Origin: Candidatus Liberimonas magnetica
Lineage (GTDB): Bacteria; Elusimicrobiota; Endomicrobiia; Endomicrobiales; JAFGIL01
Reading direction: 5' to 3'
DNA length: 64,000 nt
Assembly (NCBI GenBank): GCA_020523885.1
Contig: JAJAPY010000006.1
Span: 62,001 to 126,000, forward strand
The notes below the pieces were generated by a model, which was not told the DNA's origin, searched no databases, and saw only the letters and a list, made by a program, of their open reading frames with translations. Position numbers and translations under genes: made by a program. Position 1 is the stretch's first letter; each line of letters starts with the position of its first letter. Positions 1,223 through 12,068 of this stretch are shown piece by piece.

Positions 1223-2035
1223 TTAAACCTGAACTTGCCTTGTCTTATATTGTAAAATATAATCGAGAAATTCCACCATTTTTAACTTATATATAGAAGG
1301 CGGAAGCGTTTTAACTTCGTTAACTGCCATTTGTTTTACACTTGCCAGGTCTGTTATTGTTAGGTTCAAATCCTTGTCTATGCTGTCATCAACCATCTGA
1401 TAAAACATTCCTGAATAAACCCCAAAGTTAAAGATATTGTCAATAACCGCTTTATTTATATTTTCTGTGGCTGCATAGACAACCCCGGTGCAGCTAAACC
1501 CCATAAGCAGCCCTGTTTTCAGCCTTATCATCTTCAGGTAGCCCCTTTTATCCATGTTATTTTCCAGCTTCTCCATAAACTGGCCGTAACACATTTTGTT
1601 AATGACTTCCAAAAGGTTCCATGAAACTGACGGGTTAAAGGATTTACAAAGGATCTGCAGCGCCCTGCTATAAAGCATGTCCCCAAGCAAGACCGCCTCC
1701 CCCGGGCCATACTTTATATTTAAGGATACTTCGCCGCGCCTTTTTAGCTCTCCGTCAATAATATCGTCATGGACAAGGCTTGCAGTGTGTATAAGCTCAA
1801 CAGCCACTGCAAAATCAAACAACCTGTTCATAGCGGAATTAGCGATTTTTTCTTTTAAGAGTATCTTTGCGGAGCTAAGAGCAAGAAACGGCCTCATGTA
1901 TTTTGCCTTAGCGTTGAAGTAAGGCTCGATATACTGCCTTACCTCCTGCATGGCAATAACATGGCCTTTAACCAGGCTTTTTACCGCTTCAAGTTCTTCG
2001 TGTACAGGCTGATATATTGCGCTTAATCCGTCCAT
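1223..2035 (-). CDS. Polyprenyl diphosphate synthase (short form)
   Basis: A trans-prenyltransferase that extends allylic diphosphates with isopentenyl diphosphate, probably for a quinone side chain or lipid carrier. Both Asp-rich motifs are present: DDIID inside LVHDDIIDGELKRRG and DDSID inside YQMVDDSIDKD. The usual GGKRxRP segment is replaced by AKAKYMRP. At 270 residues it is shorter than the usual 300-330. In Gram-positive electron-transfer loci a heptaprenyl diphosphate synthase (DmkB) accompanies EetA/EetB; those two families occur at 43.9-45.5 kb here, so a link to a demethylmenaquinone pool is tempting but inferred. Product chain length cannot be read from the sequence. Confidence 0.88.
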   Translation of the reverse strand: MDGLSAIYQPVHEELEAVKSLVKGHVIAMQEVRQYIEPYFNAKAKYMRPFLALSSAKILLKEKIANSAMNRLFDFAVAVELIHTASLVHDDIIDGELKRRGEVSLNIKYGPGEAVLLGDMLYSRALQILCKSFNPSVSWNLLEVINKMCYGQFMEKLENNMDKRGYLKMIRLKTGLLMGFSCTGVVYAATENINKAVIDNIFNFGVYSGMFYQMVDDSIDKDLNLTITDLASVKQMAVNEVKTLPPSIYKLKMVEFLDYILQYKTRQVQV

Positions 2036-2307: not shown

Positions 2308-3573
2308 TCAAGGGGTAAATTTAGAGAGTTCATTGATACCCAGAGATTTTTCTATTTCTTCAACTTGACTGGCTACCTTTTTAAACCCGCCTTTTCCAAA
2401 AACTATTTCTTCTTCTTTCTCAAATTGTTCTGCCAATCCTGCATACTCATCAGGCGGAACGATGTTACGAAACGCCGGGAATAAAACAGTGTCTTCCTGG
2501 GCTTTATGCGGCCGGTACATATTAATAAAGGCACGCAGAGAACTTGCCAATCTGTTTTTATCCGGCGCATTTTGTTGAGCCTTTATAGCATAGGTTATTT
2601 TACGCCCTGCTTTATGCTGTTCTTCAAGGGCAGCTATCATATAAGCAAGATTGTTTGTTTTACGGAACCTGTCAAAAATATATTTTTCCTCAAGAACTTC
2701 ATGGTAACCCTGGATAAAACTGCTGACAATATCGGTTGATTGGGAAAGAGGTTCAGCAGGAAACACCTCATTATTATTTATGCGCTTTATTATCTCTTCA
2801 TAAATGAGCAGCAGCCGGCTGATAACGCCATGTTCACGCATGAGGTCCTCATTGGCTGAAATCAAAGTTCCTGTTTCCTCATTCGCTTTATCGAATCTTT
2901 TTTTGACTATAGCCCAATTCAGTTTCTTAAAGAAGCTCGCAATATATTTACCCCGGTCTATCTGGTAATCTGTCATATAAGCGTGTTCAAAGACATCCAG
3001 CACCGCCAGCGGCTTTGCAGCTGCGATTTGCCCTGTATCGTGTTCAGTGACCCATACATTTATAAGTTTCCCTGTACGCGGCTCCAGGCAGAGTATGGCC
3101 CAGCCTATCCCGCGCATTGCTGCAGTTGAAGTAAAATCCTTTTTCCAAAGCTCAAAACTTCCAAAACTCTCAGTTATATTCTCATACAAAGCGCTGCCTT
3201 CTTCCGGGCCGCCCGTCCCGCCCAGGTTTTCAAAATAATATTCATGCAGCAGCGCTCCGTTAAGTTCCCATCCCAGCCTGCGTTTTAATTCTGCGTATTC
3301 CGGAGTGTTATCCTTATTATTGGCAGCTAGAATGCCAAGCTTTTCTAAAATGGAATTAGTGTTTTTTACATACCCCTGGTAAAGCTTAAAGTGATTGTTC
3401 AACAGGGTATCGCTGAAACCTTCCATACCGAGTAAGACGGAAAAATCTTTCGCCTGAATAGAAGCCGCCGAATCAGCAGGCACTGTTTTAATACGGGGAG
3501 GCACTACTGCCAGCGCGCCCGTCCCTAAGAAAATGATTAGCAAAGCAGGTATAATTTTCCTATATTCTTTCAT
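2308..3573 (-). CDS. Secreted Fe/Mn superoxide dismutase fused to a hemerythrin domain
   Basis: A 421-residue two-domain protein. Residues 1-22 form a signal peptide, so it acts outside the cytoplasm. Residues about 43-225 are an iron/manganese superoxide dismutase with all four metal ligands: H61, H110 (LLHEYYFENL), D193 and H197 (DVFEHAYMTDY). Residues about 243-370 form a four-helix hemerythrin with a full diiron set: H248, H291/E295 (HxxxE), H320 and H356/D361 (HxxxxD). The dismutase would turn superoxide to peroxide and oxygen, and the hemerythrin could bind or sense the oxygen, or shield the metal. It ends an operon PRTase-glutaredoxin-TrxB-this gene, 24 bases after trxB. Each domain call is firm; how they cooperate is inference. 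Confidence 0.88.
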   Translation of the reverse strand: MKEYRKIIPALLIIFLGTGALAVVPPRIKTVPADSAASIQAKDFSVLLGMEGFSDTLLNNHFKLYQGYVKNTNSILEKLGILAANNKDNTPEYAELKRRLGWELNGALLHEYYFENLGGTGGPEEGSALYENITESFGSFELWKKDFTSTAAMRGIGWAILCLEPRTGKLINVWVTEHDTGQIAAAKPLAVLDVFEHAYMTDYQIDRGKYIASFFKKLNWAIVKKRFDKANEETGTLISANEDLMREHGVISRLLLIYEEIIKRINNNEVFPAEPLSQSTDIVSSFIQGYHEVLEEKYIFDRFRKTNNLAYMIAALEEQHKAGRKITYAIKAQQNAPDKNRLASSLRAFINMYRPHKAQEDTVLFPAFRNIVPPDEYAGLAEQFEKEEEIVFGKGGFKKVASQVEEIEKSLGINELSKFTP

Positions 3574-3596: not shown

Positions 3597-4502
3597 TTAG
3601 TTGGCGCTGTTTATATAAGAAAAAGCTGCCAGGCTTGCTTTTGCGCCTTCCCCGCAGGCGACGATTATCTGTTTTGCCGGCACATCGGTTACATCCCCGG
3701 CGGCAAAAATACCCGGCACACTTGTCCTTGACCTGCAGTCAACTAATATCTCGTTTTTGTCATTCTTATTCACTATCTTAATAAAATCAGAGGAAGGCTC
3801 CGCCCCGACTTCAACAAAGACTCCTGCGACGCTTATATCCAGCCGGCTGCCGCCATGTTTTATTTTAACGCCCTTTACGAACCTGTCGCCGTATATTTCT
3901 TCCATAGTTGAACCTCTGTAAACCTCTACCCTGGAATTATTTATAACTTTATCCATTATGCCGGGGTCAGCTTTAAACGAGTCTTCTTTTTCAATTACGT
4001 AAACCTTGTTTGCTACATTTGAAAGCTGGACAACGGCGTCAAGCCCTGAATTTCCGCCTCCGACAACCGCGACATCCTTGCCCGCAAACAATGGAGCGTC
4101 ACAGGTTGCGCAGTAGGCAACCCCTTTATTCCTGAATTCGTCTTCACCGGGTATGCCGAGTTTTTTGTGCGCCCTGCCAGTTGCTATGATTACTGTTTTT
4201 GTTTTATAATTAGCCTTGCCGGTTTTAATAGAGAAATGCCCCTCGTTGCCTTTTACGGCAGATTCTACTATTTCATTTTCTTGAATCTTTATTCTGTTCA
4301 GGTTTAACTGTTCTGTAAATTTATCTACAAGCTGCCGGCCCGTTACAAGCATATAGCCGGTATAATTTTCAATATTATTGGTCCAGAGAGTCTGGCCTCC
4401 AAGATCTTTTGAAATGACGATAAAATTCATTCGTTTCCTTGCCGCATATATGCCTGCGGTTATCCCGGCAGGGCCTGCTCCTAGAATGATAAGATCATAC
4501 AT
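3597..4502 (-). CDS. trxB: Thioredoxin reductase
   Basis: A 301-residue low-molecular-weight thioredoxin reductase that passes electrons from NADPH through FAD to a thioredoxin or glutaredoxin. The FAD-binding GAGPAG is at residues 8-13, the NAD(P)-site GGGNSG at 148-153, and the redox-active CATC at C131/C134, with the FAD-contacting GIFAAGDVTD near residue 270. The length is normal for the family. It follows the glutaredoxin gene by 11 bases and precedes the secreted dismutase-hemerythrin gene by 23, so the three form one oxidative-stress transcription unit. The adjacent CxxC glutaredoxin is its likely partner. Confidence 0.95.
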   Translation of the reverse strand: MYDLIILGAGPAGITAGIYAARKRMNFIVISKDLGGQTLWTNNIENYTGYMLVTGRQLVDKFTEQLNLNRIKIQENEIVESAVKGNEGHFSIKTGKANYKTKTVIIATGRAHKKLGIPGEDEFRNKGVAYCATCDAPLFAGKDVAVVGGGNSGLDAVVQLSNVANKVYVIEKEDSFKADPGIMDKVINNSRVEVYRGSTMEEIYGDRFVKGVKIKHGGSRLDISVAGVFVEVGAEPSSDFIKIVNKNDKNEILVDCRSRTSVPGIFAAGDVTDVPAKQIIVACGEGAKASLAAFSYINSAN

Positions 4503-4513
4503 TTATTTATCCT

Positions 4514-4750
4514 CTATTTAATATTTAATTCTTTCCAAAGTTCGGTTTCATTGAAACCAACAATAATCCTGCCGTCTATATCAATAACAGGCACAGCCAT
4601 CTCCCCCGATTTTTCAATCATTTCCCGGGCTTTCTGGCTGTCTTTGCTTACATCTATATTTTCATATTCAATTTTATTTTCTGTTAAAAACTTCTTTAAC
4701 GAATTACATGCCGGGCAACTGGGAGTTGAATAAATTTTTATATTAGGCAT
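4514..4750 (-). CDS. Glutaredoxin-like redoxin (NrdH/CPAC type)
   Basis: A 78-residue cytosolic redoxin with the active site CPAC at C12/C15 (STPSCPACNS) and the cis-Pro region AVPVIDIDG of the glutaredoxin fold, ending in the GFNETEL segment typical of small glutaredoxin-like proteins. With thioredoxin reductase directly downstream and no glutathione genes in view, it probably behaves like NrdH: reduced by TrxB rather than by glutathione. The family is certain; the reductant is inferred from gene order. Confidence 0.9.
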   Translation of the reverse strand: MPNIKIYSTPSCPACNSLKKFLTENKIEYENIDVSKDSQKAREMIEKSGEMAVPVIDIDGRIIVGFNETELWKELNIK

Positions 4751-4806
4751 ATTTTGTCCTTATCCTTTGCTGGAGGCGTTTCCCCGATACTCTGGCATAC
4801 GGCCCT

Positions 4807-5460
4807 TTATTTTTTTATCAGCCTGGCGTCCTGCAGTGTCTCAACGACCTGCGCATCAGTCAGATCGTAAAACTCTTCATAAAACGCTGCGACTGCAAAC
4901 GGAAGGGCGCTGCTGACCTGGACTGAGATAACCTTATCAACTTCTTCGGATATCACGGACAGTGAGTCCCTGTGTGCCACAGGCGTTGCCGCTATTATTT
5001 CTCCCGCGCCGCGTTTCCTGGCAAAACGCACAGCCCCAAGCATTGTATAACCAGTGGCCAGCCCGTCGTCCGTTATAACGACCGTGCGCTTTTCAAGGCC
5101 GGGGAACGGGCGTTTTCCCCTGTAAATCCTGTCTCTTCTAAGCACTTCCCTGTAAACCTCATTAACTATTCCGTCTATTTCTTCCCTGTTCACATACCCC
5201 TGATCAAGAAAATAGTCATTCAATATTACTTCTTTATCAAGGTTCACTACGCCAAAACCCGTCTGATCATTTGAGGGAATAGGAAGCTTCCTTACAGTTA
5301 TAGGTTCAAGCGGACATTTGAGATAATCTGCGACAGGGTAACCAACTCCTATCCCGCCTCTTGGTATGCCTAAGACTAAGGGATCGGTTAGCTTAGCGCC
5401 TGATTTCCCGATTTTATCGGCTAATTTCCTGCCTGCATCTATCCTGTTTTTGAATAACAT
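4807..5460 (-). CDS. Phosphoribosyltransferase-fold protein
   Basis: A PRTase-domain protein of about 217 residues, starting at the ATG at 5460, which has a GAGGGG ribosome site about 5 bases upstream; a longer frame from a TTG at 5478 would swallow that site. The PRPP-binding signature ITDDGLATGYTM lies near residues 129-140, and the beginning LGIPRGGIGVG is typical of the stand-alone PRTases found in stress and dienelactone-hydrolase operons of bacteria. The substrate base is unknown. It is the first gene of the unit that continues with glutaredoxin, trxB and the dismutase-hemerythrin fusion (56-base gap to the next gene). Confidence 0.82.
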   Translation of the reverse strand: MLFKNRIDAGRKLADKIGKSGAKLTDPLVLGIPRGGIGVGYPVADYLKCPLEPITVRKLPIPSNDQTGFGVVNLDKEVILNDYFLDQGYVNREEIDGIVNEVYREVLRRDRIYRGKRPFPGLEKRTVVITDDGLATGYTMLGAVRFARKRGAGEIIAATPVAHRDSLSVISEEVDKVISVQVSSALPFAVAAFYEEFYDLTDAQVVETLQDARLIKK

Positions 5461-5645
5461 TTTTAGCCCCTCGATCAACCTTCGCGGCTGCAGCCCCCGC
5501 CCTTAACAAGTCACAAAATACCGCGTATGTTCTTGCCCAATCCCGGCAAAACCCAAAGCACCGTACGTTATTCCGCAAAAATGAGAATAGTGACGGCGCT
5601 TTACAGTTTCTCCCCCCAAGCCACAGAAAAACATAGTTTTTTGCA

Positions 5646-6047
5646 TTATTTCGCAGATACAGGTTTTTCTGATTCCATAAGGCATTCTTTCCATTCTTTC
5701 GGGTTATTCATTTTCCATTCGTTGATTTGCCTCATAATTGATTCTTTTGTATCCATCATTTCAGGCATATTCTTCATTCCCTTCATCCCGCCCCTATCCA
5801 TGGAACCATGCATTTTTCCCAGAGGCCCCATCTGGCACATACCGGCCATCGAGCCCATTTTACCATGATGCCCGCATGAGAGGCCGAACACTAAAACAAG
5901 CACGGCAAAAACATAAAGTATAATAGCCATAACTTTCCCAAAACCTGAAAGGCCTTTCGATGTATTTTCGTGCATTGAAGTCCAGGAACAAATATATCCC
6001 AAAGCTACCAGTACAACACTCAACAAAACTGCATGAAATATAAACAT
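5646..6047 (-). CDS. Small membrane protein with Met/His-rich tail
   Basis: A 133-residue protein. The start at 6047 is chosen because GGAGG lies 7 bases upstream (GGAGGAATTACA-ATG); the upstream in-frame codon at 6071 would begin before that site. Two hydrophobic segments (about residues 3-20 and 38-56) are followed by a tail with CGHHGKMGSMAGMCQMG and further Gly-Met repeats, then a charged amphipathic end. Met- and His-rich segments of this kind usually bind copper or silver ions. I recognise no family. It sits between the stress operon and the ferritin-like gene, which fits a metal-handling role, but this is inference. Confidence 0.6.
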   Translation of the reverse strand: MFIFHAVLLSVVLVALGYICSWTSMHENTSKGLSGFGKVMAIILYVFAVLVLVFGLSCGHHGKMGSMAGMCQMGPLGKMHGSMDRGGMKGMKNMPEMMDTKESIMRQINEWKMNNPKEWKECLMESEKPVSAK

Positions 6048-6147
6048 TGTAATTCCTCCATTATAGCCCAAAGTCTAACGTTCTAAGTCTTGGGCCGTAC
6101 CTCGGCCTGTTGACTTAGCACATGGGACTTAGGACTGATTTACTTAG

Positions 6148-6588
6148 TTATATCCCTAGTAAAACAGAAAGCTCAGCAACATGTTCCTGCTCATCAACTA
6201 TCACATGGCGGATATCGTGTTCCAGGGTCTCAAACTCATACTGCAGTTCTTTTTTACCGTCAACCACCTTCTGGTAGATCTGTTTATAGAAGTCAATGGC
6301 ATCCTTTTCCCCTTTCAGGTTAACTTTAAGTATGTCTTTAAGTTCCCTGGCTAAGTGAGTTTCGGCAAGGCCCATCGAAGGTTCTCCTCCGAGGTAGTTG
6401 CCTATAAGGTTCCTGAATTTTTCTTCGTGGCTTTTTTCATCAGAGGCTATTTCATTCAACCTTTCAATTAATTTCTCTGCGTTCTCTCCTTTGATTAACT
6501 CAGCATGGGACAGGTACTGTATCCTTGCAGCATGCTCCAGTTCCAGGGCTTTGTTCAACATTTTAATCAACTCTTCTTTAATGTTCAT
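6148..6588 (-). CDS. Ferritin-like diiron protein (bacterioferritin/rubrerythrin-like)
   Basis: A 146-residue four-helix protein. The ATG at 6588 is chosen for its GGAGGT site 7 bases upstream. Diiron ligand patterns appear in all helices: E in LNKALELEHAARIQY, ExxH-like in ASDEKSHEEKF, E in LKGEKDAIDFYKQ and ExxH in DEQEHVAEL. Such proteins store iron or use peroxide to oxidise iron. There is no rubredoxin-like extension, so it is not a full rubrerythrin. It lies between a metal-binding membrane protein and a superoxide reductase, consistent with iron and oxygen defence. Exact subfamily uncertain. Confidence 0.85.
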   Translation of the reverse strand: MNIKEELIKMLNKALELEHAARIQYLSHAELIKGENAEKLIERLNEIASDEKSHEEKFRNLIGNYLGGEPSMGLAETHLARELKDILKVNLKGEKDAIDFYKQIYQKVVDGKKELQYEFETLEHDIRHVIVDEQEHVAELSVLLGI

Positions 6589-6634
6589 TTTTTTACCTCC
6601 GTTATTTATCACTTTTTTGTTTTGTTTTTTATGG

Positions 6635-6659
6635 ATTCCGGCTTACTACTTGCCGGAAT
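6635..6659. repeat. Small palindromic repeat (GGATTCCGGC...GCCGGAATGAC type)
   Basis: ATTCCGGC (6635-6642) and GCCGGAAT (6652-6659) are perfect arms around a 9-base loop, flanked by ATGG and GACA. The same frame (ATGGATTCC ... GGAATGACA) returns at 42166-42247, so this is a dispersed intergenic repeat. Confidence 0.55.
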
Positions 6660-6724
6660 GACATCACTTTTTGCTTTCATCTTTTTTCATTGATCTTTGG
6701 ACATTATTGTTTAATTTATACTGC

Positions 6725-7168
6725 TTATAAATCCACTTCGCTCATCCATGCTCCGTGGATATTGCATTTCTCGATCGTCGTAAACTTGCCGTTGTCTACC
6801 TTTAAATGAAGCCCTATAGCGGGGTTCATCTTTTCAGGCGACAAGTAGGTCCTCGAAATATATTTTTTGTCTATATAGCAGTCGATATACATTATGAAAT
6901 GCTCCGGCAGCATCGGGTGAGTTATTTCGCCTACCTTTATATTGACATCCGTGCAGCCGTCAGGTATTAGTTTACACTGCTTCTTAACGATTATCTGCGG
7001 TATATGCTTCCTGTTTGTTTCGAGTTTCTCCGTTTTATCGCTCGGCTCTACTATGGCATCTGCTTTTTCATCGAATGATTTCTTAGGAGCGCTGCAAACA
7101 GGGCATTTCTCCGGAGCACTCCCGTCAATAGCTATAAACCCGCATACTGAACACACAATTCCTTTCAT
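6725..7168 (-). CDS. Superoxide reductase with N-terminal rubredoxin-like domain (desulfoferrodoxin-like)
   Basis: A 147-residue cytosolic enzyme that reduces superoxide to peroxide without making oxygen. The N-terminal 30 residues carry a rubredoxin-like knuckle with C6/C9 (CSVC) and C22/C25 (CPVC). The C-terminal domain holds the five ligands of the catalytic iron: H55 (RKHIPQI), H84 and H90 (THPMLPEHF), C135 and H138 (CNIHGAW), preceded by the usual Lys before the first His. The N-terminal module resembles rubredoxin or rubrerythrin zinc ribbons rather than the desulforedoxin CxxCG knuckle. Electrons could come from the rubredoxin at 12194-12364. The assignment is firm. Confidence 0.9.
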   Translation of the reverse strand: MKGIVCSVCGFIAIDGSAPEKCPVCSAPKKSFDEKADAIVEPSDKTEKLETNRKHIPQIIVKKQCKLIPDGCTDVNIKVGEITHPMLPEHFIMYIDCYIDKKYISRTYLSPEKMNPAIGLHLKVDNGKFTTIEKCNIHGAWMSEVDL

Positions 7169-9585: not shown

Positions 9586-11013
9586 ATGAATATACTTATT
9601 ATAAACTCTAATAATACCCGAAAGCCAGTGCCTGTAATGCCTATCGGAGCATGTAGAGTGGCTGAAGCTGCCGAACAGGCAGGGCATACGGTCAGGTTCC
9701 TTGACCTTATGTTTGAAAAGGATATAGCCTCCGCCGTTCGAAATGAGGTAAAGAAGCACCTTCCTGGTTTAATAGGGATTTCCGTAAGGAACATAGACAA
9801 TAACTCTATGCCCAACCCCGTTTCCTGCTATAAGCAGGTTCAAGAAATAACAGAAGCGATCCGCTCGGTTTCCTGCGCACCTGTAATACTTGGCGGAACA
9901 GCTGTAGGGATAATGCCGGAAGCCTATCTTAAGCTTACAGAAGCGGAAGGCGCAGTTTCCGGCCCTGGTGAATTTGTTTTTCCTGAAATAATTCAGAGCT
10001 TTGAAGACAACGTGCCAATAGATGAAATCAAAGGGCTTATCACGCTAAAGCATACCTCTGCAGAAGAAAAATATGATAATAAGAATATCTCTGCCTCAGT
10101 TTATAGAACACCGGATTTCAAGAAATGGCTGAATATGAACACCTACACATCCCATCTTGCAAGCATTCCGGTACAAACAAAACAGGGATGCCCGTTCAAA
10201 TGTATATATTGTACCTATGGGATGTGCGAAGGAAACCGTTTCGATGCAGCTCCGGTTGAAAAGGTAATTGAACGTATAAAACTCCTATCTTTGTCAGGTT
10301 TAAAAGATATAGAATTCACTGATGCAGTTTTTAATTACCCGTACGAACATGCCTTTGAGCTCTGCGAGGGCCTTATCAAAGCACATACCGGTGCGCGGTT
10401 TCAAACTTACAACCTTAACCCGGGGTTCATGGATAAAACCCTTCTTGACGTTATGGAAAAAGCAGGGTTTTATGGAATAGGAATATCTGCAGAAAGCGGT
10501 TCAAACAGAGTCCTTAGAGGTTTGCAAAAAAATTACACTTTAGAGGATCTAACCAATGCCGCAGAAGCGCTTCAAGAAAGCAAGCTGCCGTGTTTCTGGA
10601 TGTTTATTCTGGGAGGGCCGAAAGAAACAGAAGAAAGCATTGATGAAACATTAGAGTTTGCACAAAAATATGTAAAATCTAAAGACGTGGCGTTACTAAG
10701 CCTGGGATTGCGCATCTATCCTGGCACAGGCCTTGAAGCTTTGGCGCGCGAAGAAGGGCTTTTAACAGCAAAACCGGAAGAAATGCTTGAACCACTCACA
10801 TATATCTCTCCTCTTATTGAACAGAAGATTTTGGCTAACAGAATAGAAAGAGCTATACATACTCACCTGAACTATATAGATTCAGGTTTCCTGCAGTCCC
10901 CTTTGCTAAATACCCTGTTGCCTTTAGTTCATTTAACCGGTTTAAGCAGGCCTCTATGGAAACACACTAATTTATTAAGGCGTTCTTTACGCATGATAGG
11001 AACTCGCTTATGA
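9586..11013 (+). CDS. B12-binding-domain radical SAM enzyme coupled to a type III PKS
   Basis: A 475-residue radical SAM protein. Residues 1-140 have the Rossmann-like cobalamin-binding fold seen in B12-dependent radical SAM enzymes (MNILIINSNN, LIGISVRN, VILGGTAVG). No clear DxHxxG cobalamin motif is visible. The [4Fe-4S] motif CxxxCxxC is C202, C206, C209 (GCPFKCIYC), and GISAESGS with FILGGP are further family motifs. Typical reactions are methylation or rearrangement at unreactive carbons. Its stop overlaps the start of the polyketide synthase gene (ATGA), so the two are made together and this enzyme probably modifies the polyketide or its starter. The exact reaction is unknown. Confidence 0.85.
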   Translation: MNILIINSNNTRKPVPVMPIGACRVAEAAEQAGHTVRFLDLMFEKDIASAVRNEVKKHLPGLIGISVRNIDNNSMPNPVSCYKQVQEITEAIRSVSCAPVILGGTAVGIMPEAYLKLTEAEGAVSGPGEFVFPEIIQSFEDNVPIDEIKGLITLKHTSAEEKYDNKNISASVYRTPDFKKWLNMNTYTSHLASIPVQTKQGCPFKCIYCTYGMCEGNRFDAAPVEKVIERIKLLSLSGLKDIEFTDAVFNYPYEHAFELCEGLIKAHTGARFQTYNLNPGFMDKTLLDVMEKAGFYGIGISAESGSNRVLRGLQKNYTLEDLTNAAEALQESKLPCFWMFILGGPKETEESIDETLEFAQKYVKSKDVALLSLGLRIYPGTGLEALAREEGLLTAKPEEMLEPLTYISPLIEQKILANRIERAIHTHLNYIDSGFLQSPLLNTLLPLVHLTGLSRPLWKHTNLLRRSLRMIGTRL

Positions 11014-12068
11014 ATACAGCCGGTATGCGCGTAGCATCTATCGCCTTGGCAACACCCCAGCTAATGATCCAGCAGGAAGAAGCTGCCGAGTTTATCCTTT
11101 CAAATTACTCTAACAGGCTTAAGAAAAAAAGCGTAGAGATAGCGCGTAAGGTATTCGGCCACCCAAGCATTAAGCAAAGAAGTTTCGCCTTTAACGACCC
11201 ATCCTGTCTTATAGATGAAAAACCGGATTCAAAAATCGAACGCTTTACACGTTATTCAGTAGAACTCTCAGCCGAAGCGGCAAATAAAGCCCTAAAAGAA
11301 GCCGGGCTAAAACCGGAAGAACTTTCTGCAGTTGTGGTTAATACCTGTACAGGCTATATATGCCCGGGTATTTCAACGTATCTAATAGAAAAGCTCGGTT
11401 TGCGCCAAGATATTAAAGCCTACGACCTTGTAGGAAGCGGATGCGGCAGGGCTATACCGAACCTGCAATTATGCGGCGCAATCCTAAAGGAAGATAACGA
11501 TGGTATTATTTTAAGTATTTCAACTGAAATTTGCAGCAGCACGTTTCAAATGGGAAATGACCTAAGTTTGATAGTTTCTAATGCGCTGTTTGCTGACGGC
11601 GCTGCAGCTATGGTTTTCTGGAACAGGCCAAAAGGCCTTGCTGTAAAAGGCTCTGCAAGTTATTTTGAACCTCGCTACCGCGAAAATATAAGATTTATAC
11701 ACCAGGATGGGCAATTGCATAATCATCTTTCCAAAAACCTTCCTCAAATAGCCGCCCCCATCATAAGGCAGGCCATTGATAACCTTTTGAAAAAACATGG
11801 CTTAGGCCGGGATAACATTTCGGGCTGGGCTCTGCACCCGGGTGGAGAGAATGTCATAAATGCGCTAAAAACAGAATTAGGCCTATCGGAAGAGCGCCTT
11901 GAACCGACTCGTTATGTCCTTAAAAACTTCGGCAACCTGTCATCTCCGACTGTCTGGTTCGTTATGAAAAACATAGTTGAAAAAGGCCTTAGAAAAGGGG
12001 AATGGTATCTTGCGGCGGCTTTTGGCGCGGGGTTTTCAGTGCATACCTGCCTTTTTCAGGCAGAATAA
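11010..12068 (+). CDS. Type III polyketide synthase (chalcone synthase-like)
   Basis: A 352-residue homodimeric ketosynthase that condenses malonyl-CoA units onto an acyl-CoA starter and cyclises the product. The catalytic triad is complete: C145 (VGSGCGRAIPN), H276 (WALHPGG) and N309 (LKNFGNLSSP). The C-terminal GFGPG loop of plant enzymes appears as AFGAGFSVHT. Length is typical of bacterial members making alkylpyrones, alkylresorcinols or phloroglucinols. Its ATG overlaps the radical SAM stop. A possible terminator follows at 12072. Class is sure; the starter and ring-closure type cannot be read from the sequence. Confidence 0.9.
   Translation: MNTAGMRVASIALATPQLMIQQEEAAEFILSNYSNRLKKKSVEIARKVFGHPSIKQRSFAFNDPSCLIDEKPDSKIERFTRYSVELSAEAANKALKEAGLKPEELSAVVVNTCTGYICPGISTYLIEKLGLRQDIKAYDLVGSGCGRAIPNLQLCGAILKEDNDGIILSISTEICSSTFQMGNDLSLIVSNALFADGAAAMVFWNRPKGLAVKGSASYFEPRYRENIRFIHQDGQLHNHLSKNLPQIAAPIIRQAIDNLLKKHGLGRDNISGWALHPGGENVINALKTELGLSEERLEPTRYVLKNFGNLSSPTVWFVMKNIVEKGLRKGEWYLAAAFGAGFSVHTCLFQAE

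Follow-up and report, generated by a model that had tools for sequence, protein, structure and literature searches.

What might be gained by joining a superoxide dismutase (SOD) to a hemerythrin-like (HHE) domain in one polypeptide, and is the join real? These are the questions raised by a gene in the window, that is, in the whole 64,000-nucleotide stretch of DNA analysed here. The two families that it combines are each known already; their combination is new and was seen in one genome. The fusion links superoxide defence with a large and uncharacterised family of exported HHE proteins that occurs across several phyla of uncultured bacteria, and thereby offers a first clue, open to test, to what that family does.

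Domain structure of the fusion protein

The fusion gene (2308..3573, minus strand) is a single open frame of 421 amino acids in the window, which starts at an ATG behind a GGAGG ribosome site and has no internal stops. Pfam identifies Sod_Fe_N at residues 60–117 (E 5e-6), Sod_Fe_C at residues 128–226 (E 4e-26) and Hemerythrin at residues 241–367 (E 2e-13; score 51.4 bits, threshold 25.3), all three matches exceeding the Pfam gathering cut-offs. The Fe/Mn SOD domain, which is SodFM4-like, occupies residues 38–230 (2884..3462, minus strand) according to Pfam, alignment and modelling. It is followed by a linker that contains the fusion joint (residues 231–240; 2854..2883, minus strand), modelled with low confidence and likely to be flexible, and by the HHE domain (residues 241–411; 2341..2853, minus strand), which consists of a four-helix bundle plus two C-terminal helices.

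The N-terminus carries what looks like a Sec signal peptide (residues 1–22; 3508..3573, minus strand), MKEYRKIIPALLIIFLGTGALA followed by VV, with cleavage predicted between ALA and VV. Residues 1–31 have a pLDDT below 50 in the AlphaFold2 (AF2) model, and N-terminal signals are also found on the stand-alone SOD relatives of the fusion. The protein is probably exported, presumably to the periplasm. The first-pass annotation described one secreted chain; a SOD and a diiron-type domain do lie in one frame, while the export signal was read by eye from the sequence.

In the AF2 model of the whole protein the SOD and HHE domains each have a pLDDT of about 95, and residues 232–239 of the linker are of low confidence. 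The pTM is 0.56, so that the model places each domain confidently but fixes neither their mutual placement nor the interdomain face, to which the first-pass annotation had drawn attention. The fusion is thus predicted to comprise two separately well-folded domains on a short flexible linker.

The joint between the domains

The joint was read from alignment A5, the global alignments A1 and A4 having been set aside because the HHE proteins are misplaced in them. In fusion numbering, the stand-alone SODs stop at about residue 230, and the mature part of the stand-alone exported HHE proteins starts at about residues 232–240, with 47–58% identity from there to the end. Neither the sequence nor A5 reveals a stop, an intergenic remnant or a second signal peptide between the halves. 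Since the in-frame joint falls exactly between two complete domains, a joining error or misassembly at this point, the danger flagged earlier near residue 230, is very unlikely.

A broader artefact of assembly or binning, in which two genes were joined or an Omnitrophota contig was misplaced in this genome, would fit the facts that there is a single assembly and that the nearest relatives of both halves are in Omnitrophota. Besides the character of the joint, the Lon gene on the same 185 kb contig argues against it: this is 50–54% identical to Elusimicrobiota Lon, whereas in the Omnitrophota genomes compared Lon is absent or gives unrelated matches, which speaks against a foreign contig binned into the genome. 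We therefore regard such an artefact as extremely improbable.

The SOD domain

Membership of the Fe/Mn SOD family (PF00081/PF02777) is indicated by the domain match and by the presence of three His and one Asp ligands. All 123 aligned SODs have these ligands (H61, H110, D193 and H197), and the coordinates, the domains and all four SOD ligands given in the first-pass annotation are confirmed. The domain aligns with solved SODs over residues 39–232, with a fold Z of about 26. A second-sphere, water-coordinating C-terminal His (His178) is present in 121 of the 123 sequences; the HxxxHH motif has become HxxxLY in the fusion, Tyr65 being found in 119; and two positions ahead of the Asp ligand, where the fusion has V191, 61 sequences have V and 58 have I.

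A C-terminal water-coordinating His and an HxxxHH motif that lacks its final His are the marks of SodFM4 (PMC10172142). By these motif marks the fusion SOD is of the SodFM4 type, the homotetramer being a further criterion of that subfamily. SodFMs that combine a C-terminal His with Val or Thr two before the Asp are mostly iron-preferring, and iron-preferring SodFMs are inhibited by peroxide (PMC10172142). From these residue trends, the fusion SOD is predicted to be both iron-preferring and peroxide-sensitive. We infer from its sequence that this half is active in superoxide dismutation.

Its closest counterparts are stand-alone exported SodFM4 SODs, known from Omnitrophota, Elusimicrobiota, Desulfobacterota, Nitrospirota and Acidobacteriota, which are 57–60% identical to it and have the same four ligands and the same C-terminal His. 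Most of them carry an N-terminal signal, like the fusion. In every SOD relative found the chain stops after the SOD domain, with no HHE domain, whereas the fusion continues into one.

The hemerythrin-like domain

Both a profile match and the modelled four-helix bundle place this half in the Hemerythrin/HHE superfamily (PF01814). Its ligand residues are H248, H291xxxE295, H320 and H356xxxE360(D361), which are invariant in eight relatives. An O2-carrying hemerythrin requires the pattern H-HxxxE-HxxxH-HxxxxD, comprising five His, a Glu and an Asp (PMC9388753). The HHE domain of the fusion contains exactly four His, in the pattern H-HxxxE-H-HxxxE(D), and the HxxxH of the O2 carriers is found neither in its sequence nor in the alignment with the eight relatives. 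The domain therefore does not have the full O2-carrier ligand set, contrary to the full hemerythrin diiron set first reported for it; its ligand pattern, of four His and two carboxylates, puts it in the wider HHE group.

A structure search with the whole model matched SODs only, and the HHE domain was therefore folded alone, giving a pLDDT of 90.5 and a pTM of 0.87. This model matched 2p0n (Z 16.6), 3cax (Z 16.2), 6q09 (Z 13.4) and FBXL5 (Z 11–12). The structure 6q09 is that of the M. kansasii homolog of Rv2633c, and aligns with the model over 149 residues with an rmsd of 3.8 and 17% identity. Helical bundles readily score a high Z, and a merely common fold is possible, so that the structure match supports a relationship but does not prove it. 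No O2-carrying hemerythrin was among the best 50 structure matches, which in itself excludes nothing. A direct sequence match to the mycobacterial proteins was not found, the similarity being too low; by sequence profile, FBXL5 was the only solved hemerythrin-like protein reached (E 0.0014).

The M. kansasii hemerythrin-like protein (HLP) is described as a catalase and NO peroxidase that does not carry O2; the ligands in the mycobacterial protein are four His and two Glu, plus a Tyr that is also an iron ligand (PMC8913304). The four His and two Glu of the Rv2633c type are all present in the fusion (H248, H291, E295, H320, H356 and E360), which thus shares both fold and ligand set with these proteins. 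It differs from them in that they are cytosolic single-domain proteins without a SOD, and that the counterpart of their Tyr ligand was not identified in the fusion; alignment A3 of the HHE domains contains three conserved Tyr (Y26, Y121 and Y145, numbered by its first sequence). With the hemerythrin domain of FBXL5 (3v5x/3v5z) there is a shared fold and a recognisable profile similarity, but FBXL5 is a eukaryotic iron sensor within an F-box protein. The O2-carrying hemerythrins and bacteriohemerythrins share with the fusion the four-helix bundle and diiron-type ligands, but only they have HxxxH.

The nearest relatives are stand-alone exported HHE proteins of the EDLMREHG type, from Omnitrophota, Acidobacteriota, Desulfobacterota and Nitrospirota, which are 41–58% identical to the fusion domain, including the two C-terminal helices and the FTP end. 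In contrast to the fusion domain they have their own signal peptide, in some cases Tat-like, and no SOD domain. The Tat-like signals are twin-arginine signals on three Acidobacteriota proteins (L202, L203 and L205), and suggest that these proteins are exported folded and metal-loaded. At another locus (L207:2923-4634) the closest stand-alone hemerythrin-like gene begins 1 base after a DJ-1/PfpI-like gene, named by eye, and is followed by a membrane transporter-like gene.

Occurrence and origin of the fusion

A second fusion, recognised as a match spanning both halves, was found in none of the 1,496 genomes searched across five phyla (340 from Elusimicrobiota, 334 from Omnitrophota, 297 from the phylum of Geomonas, 198 from that of a Nitrospirae genome and 327 from that of an Aminicenantes genome), nor, among the matches listed, in the best 80 SOD loci from 84,980 species, nor in the plasmids searched. 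These searches are samples, and could miss rarer fusions. No paper describing a SOD-hemerythrin fusion was found in the literature. The first-pass annotation knew of no characterised protein of this arrangement, and we agree; homologues of the whole fusion, described or otherwise, did not emerge from these searches, while each half is common on its own as an exported protein. Both halves occur on separate contigs in G417, G959, G1061 and G1370. Two candidates were rejected: at L044 the match extends to residue 338 but the SOD ORF stops at 192 amino acids, and in G1439 the 529-residue frame with an HHE match is merely open upstream of a Tat-signal start.

A phylogenetic tree places the SOD half among Omnitrophota SODs with a support of about 0.9, and the best match found for the HHE half is also from Omnitrophota (L154, 58%). 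A lateral origin is therefore likely. An anaerobe-like bacterium has joined two proteins that its relatives export separately.

Gene neighbourhood

Directly upstream of the fusion gene, at a distance of 23 bp, is a gene for a thioredoxin-reductase (TrxR)/AhpF-like flavoprotein with a CATC motif (3597..4502, minus strand), and the two genes are probably on one transcript. It is the first of a row on the minus strand (3597-7168), continuing with a phosphoribosyltransferase gene, a ferritin-like gene (6148..6612) and a gene for a rubredoxin-like plus desulfoferrodoxin protein of the superoxide-reductase type (6725..7168), the last two identified by Pfam. A SOD and a superoxide-reductase-type protein therefore share one neighbourhood; an MsrA-MsrB fusion gene lies further off. 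Judged by its genes, this is an oxidative-stress neighbourhood. In the genome of the fusion, which is 97.8% complete, a search for heme catalase (PF00199) and COX1 found neither.

In five distinct Elusimicrobiota genomes a stand-alone SOD gene comes directly after a heme-catalase gene (loci L007, L008, L041=L108, L059=L114 and L119), which provides a precedent for pairing a SOD with peroxide removal. Most of L007, L008, L041, L059 and L119 also have an alpha/beta-hydrolase-like gene (query L007:2254-3165) after the SOD gene on the same strand. An HHE gene was not found in the examined flanks of about 170 stand-alone SOD loci, and the SOD-HHE pairing itself is thus not conserved.

Proposed function

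The likeliest role of the fusion, which we propose tentatively from sequence, models and analogy, is that of an exported two-step reactive-oxygen enzyme acting as a superoxide-to-peroxide relay. The SOD domain would bind iron and turn superoxide into H2O2 and O2. The HHE domain would bind two irons and, to judge from a distant structural relative, might consume the H2O2, either as a non-heme catalase or as a peroxidase with some donor. The relay would protect the periplasm, as well as the peroxide-sensitive Fe-SOD of the fusion, in a bacterium that has neither heme catalase nor heme-copper oxidase; the HHE domain would fill the place held by catalase beside related SODs. It is this catalase-SOD order in Elusimicrobiota that makes the relay the best-supported reading. 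It is consistent also with the complete and conserved ligand sets; with the position of the joint, at which an entire SOD ends and an entire mature HHE protein begins; with the match of the HHE model to 6q09, the structure of a protein with catalase and NO-peroxidase activity; and with the TrxR-like flavoprotein, desulfoferrodoxin, ferritin-like protein and MsrAB as neighbours. Against it, the pairing of SOD with HHE is not conserved at the stand-alone SOD loci, the sequence similarity to 6q09 is low, a Z of around 13 may reflect a common helical fold, and the Tyr ligand of the mycobacterial proteins is not identified in the fusion. More specifically, the protein could be an exported single-chain SOD and non-heme diiron catalase, converting superoxide to water and oxygen, in which HHE shields the Fe-SOD from its own product; this version, drawn by analogy, we consider doubtful. 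If HHE does consume peroxide, the fusion would be a self-contained natural SOD-catalase, a compact design of oxygen defence for anaerobes; if it does not, the fusion is still one construct in which coupling can be tested by removing either ligand set.

The HHE domain could instead respond to iron or redox state, buffer iron or supply metal, in the manner of FBXL5 or as a periplasmic iron store, keeping the Fe-SOD loaded with metal or restraining Fenton chemistry without turning over peroxide. FBXL5, reached by profile and also a structural match, points this way, as do the predicted iron preference of the SOD and the nearby ferritin-like gene; but a single diiron site per chain would be a poor store, and signalling HHE proteins usually have an output domain, which the stand-alone exported relatives do not. 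We consider this unlikely. Somewhat less probable again is a neutral or structural fusion, in which a deletion joined two independent exported stress proteins without functional coupling. Its occurrence in one genome only, the flexible linker with no fixed domain orientation in the model, and the unfused state of both halves within the same genomes of other phyla (e.g. G417, G959 and G1061) would all suit such an origin, whereas the intact ligand sets and domain cores imply that both halves appear to be under selection.

Two further readings concern other small molecules. Detoxification of nitric oxide by HHE, alone or as an NO peroxidase using SOD-made H2O2, so that the pair prevents peroxynitrite, takes its cue from the NO-peroxidase activity of the M. 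kansasii HLP (PMC8913304) and the structural match to 6q09; we judge it improbable, as the one protein known to have this activity is distant and has a Tyr as an additional ligand, and no nitrogen-oxide gene was seen beside the fusion among the window genes annotated. More improbable still is oxygen scavenging, the role originally suggested for this protein, in which O2 set free by the SOD would be reversibly bound, or passed on, by HHE. The hemerythrin fold and a cell without heme-copper oxidase are compatible with it, but the domain has four His only and no HxxxH, its closest characterised structural relatives, including a solved one, are not O2 carriers, and a stoichiometric binder saturates after one turnover per site.

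Other loci

The genome that contains the fusion encodes a second exported HHE protein, 36–39% identical to the HHE domain of the fusion. Just upstream of its gene lies that of an exported protein with six YHS domains (L023:363-1418 and 1468-2124, on G000 contig C6 at about 160.2–163.5 kb), and the two may form a metal-handling unit. Within the window, a gene for a B12-binding radical SAM protein is followed, with a 4-base overlap, by one for a type III polyketide synthase-like protein (9586-12068, plus strand), and a polyprenyl synthetase gene (1223-2035, minus strand) lies near this pair. These genes possibly constitute a small natural-product or lipid locus.
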